A stretch of 64,000 bases of DNA from Gottfriedia acidiceleris (GTDB lineage Bacteria; Bacillota; Bacilli; Bacillales; Bacillaceae_G): assembly GCF_023115465.1 (NCBI RefSeq), contig NZ_CP096034.1, positions 1,612,001 through 1,676,000 on the forward strand, in the 5' to 3' direction. Under the pieces are notes generated by a model that was not told where the DNA came from, did not search any database, and saw only the letters and a list, made by a program, of their open reading frames with translations. Positions 44,277 to 47,147 of the stretch are shown in pieces. The first letter of the stretch is position 1. Every line of letters begins with the position of its first letter. The position numbers were made by a program, and so were the translations under genes.

Positions 44277-45065
44277 GTGGAGAAAATTAAAGTATTATTA
44301 GTTGATGATAATAAAGAACTTGTTATTATGTTAGAAAACTACATTAACGCACAAACAGATATGGAAGTGGTTGGGGTTGCGTTTAATGGACAAGACTGCT
44401 TACCTCTAGTGAAAGATAAAAAGCCAGATGTACTAGTCCTAGATATTATTATGCCACATTTAGATGGATTAGCGGTTTTAGATCGTTTACGCACTGGCTT
44501 AGTTGAAAAAATTCCAAACGTAATTATGCTAACAGCATTTGGTCAAGAAGATGTTACTAAAAAAGCTGTTGACCTTGGTGCATCATATTTTATCTTAAAA
44601 CCATTTGATATGGAGCATTTAATCTCAAATATCCGTCAAGTAGTTGGAAAAGGTAGTGCGGTAACTAAACGTAATGCACCTTCTTTAGTTTCAAATTACG
44701 AAAGCAAGCCACGTAACTTAGATGCTAGTATCACAAGTATCATCCATGAAATTGGGGTACCTGCACATATTAAAGGATATATGTACTTACGTGAAGCGAT
44801 TTCGATGGTATATAACGATATTGAGCTTCTAGGTTCAATTACAAAAGTTTTATATCCAGATATCGCTAAAAAGTTTAATACTACAGCTAGCCGAGTTGAA
44901 CGTGCAATTCGACATGCAATTGAAGTAGCATGGAGCCGTGGCAATATCGATAGTATTTCTACATTATTTGGTTATACAATTTCAATGTCAAAGGCAAAAC
45001 CAACAAATTCAGAATTTATTGCAATGGTAGCTGATAAATTACGTTTAGAACATAAAGCTTCTTAA
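44277..45065 (+). CDS. spo0A: Sporulation master regulator Spo0A
   Basis: Response regulator at the end of the phosphorelay. The receiver domain spans residues 1-120, with acidic pocket D10/D11, phospho-acceptor D56 (VLVLDIIMP) and K-containing YFILKPFD. The C-terminal DNA-binding domain has the recognition helix region [22 protein letters not shown]. The start is GTG 44277 after GGGAGGAACG. 262 residues. Autoregulation is supported by the 0A boxes upstream. Confidence 0.98.
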
Positions 45066-45206
45066 TTTATTTTTATTATTCATTACTCAAGAAAATTCAA
45101 TCCCGATTAACTTCTAATAGTGATTCCACAGACATTTCTCTTAGCGAATAACTTCTTATGAGATCTTCGGTACTTTTTCGCATTAGCAATTATATTATTT
45201 GTAAAA

Positions 45207-45241
45207 AGAAAACGTTGTCTATCGTAGACAACGTTTTCTTT
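45207..45241 (+). terminator. Terminator after spo0A
   Basis: AGAAAACGTTGTCTA-TCG-TAGACAACGTTTTCT, a near-perfect stem with a T-rich tail, 140 bases after the stop. Confidence 0.9.
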
Positions 45242-45310
45242 TGCTGTTGAAGTACTACCTTGTCAATTAATTATCAAATTCTCGGAGTAGAGTGATGTTG
45301 ATTTCCATTA

Positions 45311-45425
45311 CAGAATGCTCGCTTTCCCTGGGGCGCCACCTGAGCCTCCTTGGCGAGACCTGAGAATCCTCGGCAAGCCTGCGGGGTCTTTAGCCTTCCC
45401 GCATATCCCAAAGGAGTCGAGCATC
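45311..45425. repeat. GC-rich Bacillaceae-type intergenic repeat
   Basis: Starts CAGAATGCTCGCTTTCC and ends AAAGGAGTCGAGCATCTC, with complementary GAATGCTCG / CGAGCAT ends. The inside is GC-rich (GGGGCGCCACCTGAGCC; GCCTGCGGGGTC) and stands out sharply from the AT-rich surroundings. Similar REP-like blocks with CAGAATGCTCG...GGAGTCGAGCAT ends are scattered through many Bacillaceae genomes. Origin and function unknown. Confidence 0.6.
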
Positions 45426-45545
45426 TCCATTCCAATCAACTAATTCATCTAAAAAAAGTTTGCGATATAAACTTATTTTAATATCCTTTACTTTGTGTAA
45501 AATAACAGATAGTAACCGTTGAATTTACACTTTATAAAAATTAGT

Positions 45546-45574
45546 TTGCGTAATAATTTTTAGTATGCTATAAT
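45546..45574 (+). promoter_or_regulatory. Promoter of the candidate structured RNA
   Basis: TTGCGT (45546-45551) and TATAAT (45569-45574) with a 17-base spacer and an extended -10 (TGC before TATAAT). Confidence 0.65.
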
Positions 45575-45580
45575 AATTAA

Positions 45581-45866
45581 TGCGCCACTGAAACATTTAG
45601 CAAATCGATATTATTACTACGAAATTTGGGAGAAAATTGGACGTACTCCATGACACGTTAGCTATTTCAACCTTATTTCAAAACTAGTAATAGTGTGTGT
45701 TAGTGAAGATTGTTGTGAAACAAGCTGCCTAATGGAACGGCCCTGGAGCCGAATTGCGAAAGAGAGGTAGGGCTTTCGCCAATAAACAACAATTTTTATA
45801 TTTAAATAACTAACATATATAATATAACAAAGGCTATTCGTATACGTTGTACGAATAGCCTTTTTC
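45581..45866 (+). ncRNA. Candidate structured non-coding RNA, family not recognised
   Basis: About 285 bases bounded by an extended -10 promoter and a strong terminator, with no ORF. Helices that can be read: 45612-45619 with 45685-45692 (8 bp); 45694-45704 with 45809-45819 (11 bp, two G-U); 45709-45716 with 45786-45793 (8 bp); hairpin CGGC-CCTGGA-GCCG (45738-45751); hairpin GCGAAAG-10 nt-CTTTCGC (45756-45779). The loop AGGTAG (45765-45770) can pair with CTGCCT (45725-45730) as a pseudoknot. It does not match RNase P, tmRNA, SRP RNA or the riboswitch classes I checked by eye. The downstream uppP gene is on the other strand, so it is not a leader. Confidence 0.6.
45830..45865 (+). terminator. 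Terminator of the candidate RNA
   Basis: AAGGCTATTCGTA (45830-45842) pairs with TACGAATAGCCTT (45850-45862), then TTT. Confidence 0.85.
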
Positions 45867-45902
45867 CATTTATAAAATAAACCGATAAATTATATAAAGA
45901 AA

Positions 45903-45938
45903 TAAAAAAATAGGACATACCAATATGGTTGTCCTATC
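45903..45938 (-). terminator. Terminator after uppP
   Basis: On the minus strand ATAGGACA pairs with TGTCCTAT (45910-45937), with an inner ACCATATTGGT stem, followed by a run of seven T residues. Confidence 0.88.
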
Positions 45939-45961
45939 TCTTTGAAGTTTTTAATTATGAA

Positions 45962-46762
45962 TTAGAATATAAATACAATCGTGAAAACAATCGCTACAAT
46001 AAAACGATAAACTGCAAAACCTGTTAGTTTTACTTTCTCTAATAATTTTAGGAAGGAAACGATCGCAAGTAATGCAACAATGAATGCAGTGATGAATCCA
46101 GTTGCGAATAATGGTAGATCTGAAGCACTTAAAATATCGATATTTTTAATAAAATCTAATCCACTTGCAGCAATCATCATTGGTACTGCTAAAATAAAAG
46201 TAAATTCTGCAGAAGTTTTTCGATCTAATCCAAATAATAATCCCCCAGCTATTGTAGAGCCTGATCGTGAAAATCCTGGCCATAAAGCTAGCATTTGGAA
46301 GCATCCAACAATAAAAGCTTGTTTATATGAGATGTGATCTAAATCAGATGATTTAGGATGTTTAGAGACTTTTTCAGCAACAATTAATAAAATACCGCCT
46401 GCTACTAATCCGATTACAACAGTTTTAGGTGAGAATAAAACATCCTTAATGAAATCATGGAATATAAGCCCTACAATCCCGGCTGGAATAGCACCGATAA
46501 TAATATGAATTAAGTTAAGGTTCGTTTGTCTGTAACCATCTGATTTTACTCCTAGTACTGACCAGAGTCGTTTCCAAAAAACAACAACTACGGCTAGAAT
46601 TGAACCAAGTTGAACTATTACTTCAAAAAATGAAGCCTTCTCACCTGTGAAATTTAATAAATCAGCAACTAATATCATATGACCAGTAGAAGAAACAGGT
46701 AAAAATTCTGTTAATCCTTCTACCATCCCCATGATCAAACCAATTAACCAATCAGGTAACAT
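45962..46762 (-). CDS. uppP: Undecaprenyl-diphosphatase UppP/BacA
   Basis: Recycles the undecaprenyl lipid carrier by dephosphorylating undecaprenyl pyrophosphate; confers bacitracin tolerance. Both signature motifs are present: [20 protein letters not shown] and [20 protein letters not shown]. Seven to eight membrane helices, 266 residues. GGAGG lies 9 bases before ATG 46762. Confidence 0.95.
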
Positions 46763-46925
46763 TTAAAAATACCTCCATAAATACTTTTCGTTATAAAATA
46801 TACACAATACATTACATTTTACTTGAAAACTAATTAATATGAAAGGAAGTTTAAATTAAAATTAGCTCATAATTGTTAATTATTTGTACAATTTTACATA
46901 AAAATGAAATTTAAGGTTAGAATAA

Positions 46926-46954
46926 ATAAAAAAAGAAGTAGAAAAACTACTTCT
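46926..46954 (-). terminator. Terminator after yycC
   Basis: On the minus strand AGAAGTAG-TTTTT-CTACTTCT is followed by seven T residues. Confidence 0.85.
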
Positions 46955-46979
46955 GCCATTTTTATTGACGCTATTTTGA

Positions 46980-47147
46980 CTATTTAGATTCTTTATCCTC
47001 AGAAGCTTCTTCGCTTTTAGACAAATCCAATTCCATCAACTTTTTCATTAATATATGCTGTGGCATATGCATAATTTGTTCTAAAGGAACGTTTAATTTC
47101 TTAGAAAGTAAAATTGCCGTTTCAGGCGAAATTTGCAATGGTCGCAT
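46980..47147 (-). CDS. yycC: YycC-like small protein
   Basis: 55 residues, MRPLQISPETAILLSKKLNV followed by PLEQIMHMPQHILMKKLMEL and an acidic/basic tail. It is nearly identical in pattern to the B. subtilis YycC family (MRPLQIS...MHMPQHIL). ATG 47147 follows AAGGAGG by 7 bases; the frame extends 12 codons upstream without a site. Soluble, function unknown. Confidence 0.82.
   Translation of the reverse strand: MRPLQISPETAILLSKKLNVPLEQIMHMPQHILMKKLMELDLSKSEEASEDKESK

Follow-up and report, generated by a model that had tools for sequence, protein, structure and literature searches.

A diverged BsrC-family RNA between spo0A and uppP in Gottfriedia, its probable strand, and a family-level linkage to cold-shock protein genes

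A predicted transcript unit and its fold

What is encoded in the gap between spo0A and uppP of Gottfriedia acidiceleris? An earlier note, made from the letters of a 64,000-nucleotide stretch of this genome (the window), described there a promoter-to-terminator structured RNA of about 285 nt that was not recognised as any known RNA. Our analysis confirmed, at the level of sequence, a free-standing transcript unit with a vegetative-type promoter that is predicted to yield a small structured RNA. The predicted transcript occupies positions 45581 to 45865 of the plus strand (∼285 nt), running from promoter to terminator between the two genes, with the following features.

44277-45065, plus strand: spo0A, with its own terminator near 45211-45245
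45545-45550, plus strand: −35-like element TTTGCG, seen in the sequence
45566-45574, plus strand: extended −10 element of the sigma-A type (TGC plus TATAAT, the latter at 45569-45574), seen in the sequence after an 18-nt spacer from the −35 element
Near 45581, plus strand: predicted transcription start, placed by the promoter position
45829-45865, plus strand: intrinsic terminator seen in the sequence, a hairpin (−20.6 kcal/mol) followed by a T run
45962-46762, minus strand: uppP, the convergent downstream gene

The gene names uppP, amj, csp, and carD are used here on the basis of sequence reading and the gene order of Bacillus subtilis. The promoter received a score of 3 in a promoter scan, which is middling because the −35 element is weak; many stand-alone relatives described below have stronger promoters. 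One plus-strand open reading frame of at least 20 codons overlaps the unit. It has a GTG start and encodes 25 amino acids, none in the unit being longer on that strand, and single-base insertions put it out of frame in two relatives (L011 and L012). The earlier description of the unit and of its flanks, a spo0A gene with its own terminator and uppP on the opposite strand, was thus accurate. A riboswitch or leader would have a same-strand gene directly downstream, whereas here uppP lies on the opposite strand and the unit ends in its own terminator. The unit is found in all 13 Gottfriedia genomes, although the match in one of them (G003) covers only positions 69 to 305 of the 311-nt query; outside the genus, a DNA search found the core alone, in two of six genomes. 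Together with the covariation described below, the promoter, terminator, convergent uppP gene, and conservation support the view that this is probably a stand-alone structured small RNA.

A GC-rich repeat of ∼150 bp (45285-45450) separates the spo0A terminator from the promoter of the RNA. It has 42 matches in the genome, counting itself and partial ones. Three copies are interrupted at one shared point by 1,685 bases, which might reflect an insertion or a longer element from which the repeat derives.

The minimum free energy of the 286 nt is −75.9 kcal/mol, compared to −54.8 ± 4.6 kcal/mol in 200 dinucleotide shuffles (z = −4.6, no shuffle as low). The opposite strand of the unit is likewise more stable than expected by chance (z = −3.3), so the strand cannot be assigned from folding energy alone, and the terminator hairpin supplies part of the stability on both strands. 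The elements of the fold are listed here.

45586-45705, plus strand: genus-specific 5′ domain, with pairing of 45586-45591 to 45700-45705 and of 45607-45619 to 45685-45697, and inner hairpins; seven pairs show changes on both sides
45698-45815, plus strand: possible but weak outer helix, 45698-45704 (TGTTAGT) with 45809-45815 (ACTAACA), present in the minimum free energy fold
45709-45716 (ATTGTTGT) with 45786-45793 (ACAACAAT), plus strand: helix closing the core, seven pairs in the consensus fold
45738-45751, plus strand: hairpin P3, CGGC-CCUGGA-GCCG, with GGA in the loop; covaries across the family
45756-45779, plus strand: hairpin P4, GCGAAAG-AGAGGUAGGG-CUUUCGC, with a strongly conserved purine loop; covaries across the family

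In the consensus fold of the 13 Gottfriedia sequences, 8 of 74 pairs have changes on both sides, seven of them in the 5′ domain, which has a covarying long helix of its own, and one in the terminator. Within the genus the core does not vary; compensatory changes in it, of the kind that the earlier note proposed to look for in the helices, appear at the level of the family. The outer helix is absent from the consensus fold, where 45700-45705 pairs with the 5′ end instead. The closing helix (45709-45793), likewise invariant and without covariation in the genus, takes the position of helix P2 of the family with a different sequence. P4 is missing from both the minimum free energy fold of the Gottfriedia RNA and the genus consensus fold, in each of which a nested CUGCCU/AGGUAG helix replaces it, and we prefer P4 solely because it covaries across the family.

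The same hexamers had been proposed to form a loop-to-junction pseudoknot. Both are present (CTGCCT at 45725-45730 and AGGTAG at 45765-45770), but both are invariant among the Gottfriedia genomes, and at 80 other loci of the family the junction and loop were no more complementary than when the junctions were shuffled. The pseudoknot is therefore unsupported.

A BsrC-like core and the strand on which it is read

A covariance scan of positions 44500 to 47000 against Rfam (cmscan, E ≤ 1) returned a minus-strand match to BsrC and a weak match to ctRNA (E = 0.56). The latter falls on the spo0A terminator region rather than on the RNA and was set aside. As the earlier note had judged by eye, there was no match to 6S RNA, RNase P RNA, tmRNA, or SRP RNA, which are likewise free-standing structured RNAs, at an E value of 1 or better in this interval. 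A covariance model (R2) built on the plus-strand core of 43 sequences, with Gottfriedia and its sister genus left out, recognised the window core as its one convincing match in 64 kb, the next match having an E value of 1.2. The two matches compare as follows.

45707-45786, minus strand: match to Rfam RF01410 (BsrC), 30.5 bits against a cut-off of 38, E = 0.0088; taken to be the plus-strand core viewed from the wrong strand
45722-45794, plus strand: core of the family in the re-stranded orientation, model R2, 37.3 bits, E = 7.3e−11

The statement that the RNA matched no known family is thus half right: its core appears to be a diverged, re-stranded BsrC-family core, so the RNA is not without a family, but the Rfam match is below the cut-off and on the minus strand. 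When nine related loci were scanned against Rfam, RF01410 was the sole family above its cut-off.

In a 48-sequence alignment of the family core, 14 of 18 pairs show changes on both sides, the covariation score is 0.407 (0.209 in shuffles), and 93% of the cells at paired positions pair (81.8% in shuffles). GGA is present in the P3 loop in all 48 rows and is missing in L207, L208, and L214; many members carry a second GGA. The P4 loop, AGGNAGGG, is not wholly invariant, reading AGAGGAAGGG in L203 and L205 and having other changes in L207, L208, and L209. Gottfriedia retains the sequences of P3 and P4, at positions 45738-45751 and 45756-45779, and can form both hairpins. In contrast, P2, the AUUCACACUGG junction between P2 and P3, and the AAGGA step have been replaced, the genus having GAAACAAGCUGCCUAAUGG and another closing helix in place of the first two. 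We treat P2 and the junction as typical of the family rather than defining, because some other members vary there too. Compared with BsrC of the B. subtilis ydaG-ydaH interval, the window RNA shares a conserved sequence core, while it differs in P2 and junction and in forming a 285-nt unit at spo0A-uppP; it is not BsrC as Rfam defines it, since its score is below the cut-off and Rfam models 87 nt of the strand opposite to the one to which the evidence points.

Five stand-alone loci (L069, L080, L089, L092, and L098) have a 5′ segment GUAACUUG (UAACUUG in L080) for which CAAGUUA(C), on the 3′ side of the core, is a possible pairing partner. By eye, the same loci also have a competing 3′ hairpin (CUUG...CAAG), forming a possible switch.

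The strand was assessed in several ways. Among 74 core sequences, the ratio of G-U to A-C cells is 83 to 0 in P4, 10 to 0 in P3, and 56 to 15 in P2, with 14 of the 15 A-C cells in six Gottfriedia or sister-genus rows whose P2 misfits these columns. These counts favor the plus strand, because each G-U pair would become an A-C mismatch on the other strand. At 56 loci without an adjoining csp (cold-shock protein) or carD gene, promoter-like sites with a score of 2.5 or lower were found in 39 cases in the sense direction and 6 in the antisense direction, and terminator-like hairpins of −12 kcal/mol or lower in 36 and 3, respectively.

The B. subtilis 168 genome contains two copies according to the re-stranded model, at 474425-474502 (plus strand) and 559891-559968 (minus strand). 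The first sits between ydaG and amj (ydaH), and ydaG, the core, and amj are on one strand. An extended −10 element (TGTTATTAT) immediately precedes position 474,265, and a terminator hairpin ends near 474,645; B. subtilis bsrC is therefore predicted to be a plus-strand RNA of ∼380 nt. The consensus promoter scan omits this promoter because its −35 element is poor, and the terminator hairpin is listed more fully on the minus strand because it is two-sided. An Hfq coimmunoprecipitation peak for bsrC has been published at 474265-474410 (PMC3574147), from an experiment in which strand information was lost; the peak starts where the extended −10 element predicts the start of the RNA.

A 322-nt BsrC transcript has been reported on the minus strand of Paenibacillus riograndensis, at 687,745-688,067 (PMC5670726). 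In the genus labeled g143, presumably Paenibacillus, the core was found in 74 of 75 genomes, and 30 of the positives are assembled in one or two contigs. Within these 30, the core lies at 470 to 645 kb in 19 genomes, on the minus strand in 18 of them, and elsewhere on either strand in the other 11. These positions agree indirectly, by comparison of location in relatives, with the strand of the P. riograndensis transcript.

The case for the Rfam orientation is that the RNA is a minus-strand small RNA whose C-rich loops (CCCUACCUCU and one with UCC) mask ribosome-binding sites. C-rich loops are typical of Gram-positive small RNAs, an 87-nt Rfam model exists in that orientation, the minus strand has the low z score given above, and the terminator hairpin is two-sided. 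Set against this are the G-U and A-C counts, the promoters and terminators, which are rare in the antisense direction (6 and 3 of 56 loci), and the direction shared with csp, carD, and ydaG, and we consider this orientation very improbable. The G-U and A-C counts, promoters, terminators, bsrC synteny, and direction of csp and carD all favor the plus strand, and RF01410 appears to be modeled in the wrong orientation. With high confidence in both identity and strand, we assign the window RNA to the re-stranded BsrC family, as a diverged member from Gottfriedia.

RF01410 matched 255 of 299 genomes of the order, 247 of them above the cut-off, and in 14 control genomes matched B. subtilis alone. 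The window RNA thus contains a diverged part of an old and common element. The re-stranded model gave matches at an E value of 0.001 or better in 183 of 348 genomes of the class Bacilli, and in a search of the B. subtilis genus all 44 genomes matched; the stricter filters used on large samples can miss weak matches. A study of B. amyloliquefaciens FZB42 looked for BsrC and did not detect it (PMC4634765).

Spo0A neither is needed nor suffices for the RNA: in lists compared by hand, 174 of the 183 genomes of the class with the RNA had a Spo0A_C match, as did 113 of the 165 without it. A tie to sporulation was rejected because of those 113 RNA-less genomes and the RNA-bearing genomes in which the match was missing. 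Apart from weak response-regulator similarity at three loci, spo0A was not found in the flanks retrieved for the 80 other loci. A mobile or phage origin was also set aside; the class-B core had no match in phages, and the class-A core occurred in three plasmid records.

Linkage to csp and carD genes

The neighborhood of the core was analyzed at 80 loci hand-picked across many families, with the window locus left out. A csp gene lies within 1 kb at 23 of these 80 loci, across 15 family labels, although the loci are related by descent and such counts are not independent events. All 26 csp matches are on the RNA strand, and there were none in the 323,469 bases of outer flanks. The csp gene is upstream of the core at 16 loci and downstream at 7. 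At most of the 13 csp-upstream loci that were viewed by eye, a terminator-like hairpin follows csp and is then followed by the core, the leanest case (L244) having little beyond core and terminator. Copies downstream of csp seldom have a separate promoter (a score of ≤1.5 in 0 of 16 and of ≤2.5 in 2 of 16), compared to 25 and 39, respectively, of the 56 loci where neither csp nor carD adjoins the core. The neighbors of these stand-alone loci are varied.

Among the 30 top-scoring RF01410 loci, the core was located in 28 and carD was present in 27 of these, upstream on the RNA strand in 24 and with a misassigned core position in the other 3; these counts cover only loci where automatic location of the core worked (it failed on 16 of 113 and misplaced others). 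The second B. subtilis copy is a carD-type locus that faces cspC. In an earlier Rfam scan, a second bsrC match was reported in the cspC-ydeB interval (PMC8208703).

Several individual arrangements were recorded. At L242, four tandem csp genes precede the core on the same strand, and at L237, csp, the RNA, and carD follow one another on one strand, joining both kinds of neighbor. The csp leaders of L122, L136, L137, L148, L224, L234, L237, and L241 have an attenuator-like hairpin that ends in AUAUGUGAAUnUUUU or similar, precedes the csp ribosome-binding site, and has arms that resemble or complement the RNA junction AUUCACA.

At the window locus, the flanking genes are spo0A and uppP rather than csp or carD. 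The genome has seven csp genes, none with a core within the ∼1.5-kb flanks that were searched, and hence the csp link holds at the level of the family only. A csp or carD neighbor is not a defining feature of the family, since it is missing at 56 of the 80 other loci.

These arrangements bear on the idea that the core is a cis-acting sensor or attenuator of csp, working by temperature or termination control, with the stand-alone copies as derivatives. At the seven loci directly upstream of csp, at least five have, by eye, a long terminator-like hairpin before csp, and mutations in the 5′ untranslated region of B. subtilis cspC are reported to raise cspC expression (PMC8307031). On the other hand, 16 loci are downstream of csp and 56 lack both csp and carD, 39 of the latter having their own promoter-like site and 36 their own terminator-like hairpin; in the window, uppP runs the opposite way. 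A purely cis-acting element is thus improbable. The cspA thermoregulator (RF01766) is likewise an RNA element of csp mRNAs and scored above its cut-off at the csp gene beside three of six family loci scanned. It is a separate match beside the core rather than the core itself, has no match in positions 44500 to 47000 of the window, and differs from the family, whose copies often stand alone.

Possible functions of the RNA

The earlier note had suggested a regulatory or catalytic RNA, and the csp and carD linkage of the family favors a regulatory role. Because the core is found on either side of csp, 3′ of carD, and on its own, protein binding, titration, or another action that does not depend on position would explain the set better than a pure leader switch. 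We propose that the compact core, with its conserved unpaired AGGNAGGG loop, its GGA loop, and, outside Gottfriedia, the AUUCACACUGG junction, may be a binding platform for a protein. This protein would belong to the RNA-chaperone and cold-shock circuit and would most likely be a Csp protein itself. The core would act in cis next to a csp or carD gene that is read from the same strand; where the RNA is made alone, as here and in B. subtilis bsrC, it would be a free titrating or feedback RNA. Copies behind a csp terminator could be a feedback output, which would suit an effect of Csp on read-through; CspB and CspD are reported to influence terminator read-through (PMC8307031).

The strand, the P3 and P4 hairpins closed by P2, the limits of the unit, its conservation and spread, and the same-strand linkage to csp and carD are supported by computation. 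A regulatory link to the Csp circuit comes close to an even chance, its mechanism being conjectural. Direct binding by Csp is a guess that we regard as rather unlikely. CspB prefers pyrimidines, and the mismatch with the purine-rich P4 loop counts against the proposal as a whole, as do the replacement of the family junction and AAGGA in Gottfriedia and the lack of P4 in the minimum free energy and consensus folds. For the whole explanation, a re-stranded BsrC-family RNA that serves as a binding platform in the Csp circuit, we estimate a probability of roughly 40%. The more specific statement, that RF01410 represents, in the wrong orientation, part of a widespread class of RNA in the Bacilli, a compact three-way junction that binds cold-shock proteins and is the RNA partner of the Csp system, is doubtful at present.

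Base pairing is rated as likely as direct Csp binding. On this view, mRNAs would be the partners of the P4 loop, the junction, or the variable 5′ parts, possibly with the help of Hfq, and the linkage to csp would be indirect. Conserved segments are left unpaired in the core, and in 6 of the 16 csp regions scanned, an attenuator-like hairpin before csp contains a 7-mer that could pair with the junction. In the table of small RNAs from Hfq coimmunoprecipitation in PMC3574147, B. subtilis bsrC stands in the first row, with an RPKM ratio of 53.6. The junction complement is absent from the other 10 regions, however, the junction itself is absent in Gottfriedia, and a 7-nt complement of the loop was found in none of the 16. 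With junction complements in 6 and loop complements in 0 of 16 regions, no pairing target is established.

The GGA motifs suggest a further comparison, with CsrB- and RsmZ-type RNAs, which are likewise free-standing and structured with GGA in a hairpin loop and whose titration logic resembles the one proposed here. The RNA would then titrate CsrA through its GGA loop and AAGGA, an idea to which the GGA of the P3 loop in all 48 alignment rows and the second GGA of many members lend some appeal. CsrB- and RsmZ-type RNAs differ in fold from the window RNA, which has few GGA motifs, and the window genome has no csrA (PF02599) match. Among the 299 genomes, in lists compared by hand, the RNA is kept in 16 of 17 without csrA, and csrA is present in 43 of the 44 without an RF01410 match. 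The RNA is thus not tied to CsrA, and a CsrA sponge, the most improbable of the explanations weighed here, is ruled out for the window genome unless its CsrA went undetected. PF02599 was absent from the window genome, five other sampled Gottfriedia genomes, and two genomes of the sister genus and present in two other Gottfriedia genomes.

We return to the preferred reading, that of a re-stranded BsrC-family RNA as a binding platform in the Csp circuit. In the literature searched, there was no paper on the function of BsrC, the strand problem, or the csp linkage, and the main text of PMC10029925 does not mention BsrC. The family is a widely conserved structured RNA of Bacillus relatives whose existing model is apparently wrong-stranded, and its same-strand linkage to csp is a first clue to its function. 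If its orientation is indeed wrong, RF01410 would direct strand-specific annotation, the design of probes, and the prediction of targets to the wrong molecule. The Gottfriedia copy illustrates how much the core can diverge even when the sequences of P3 and P4 are retained, and given the same-strand csp linkage, the function can be tested directly in B. subtilis 168.
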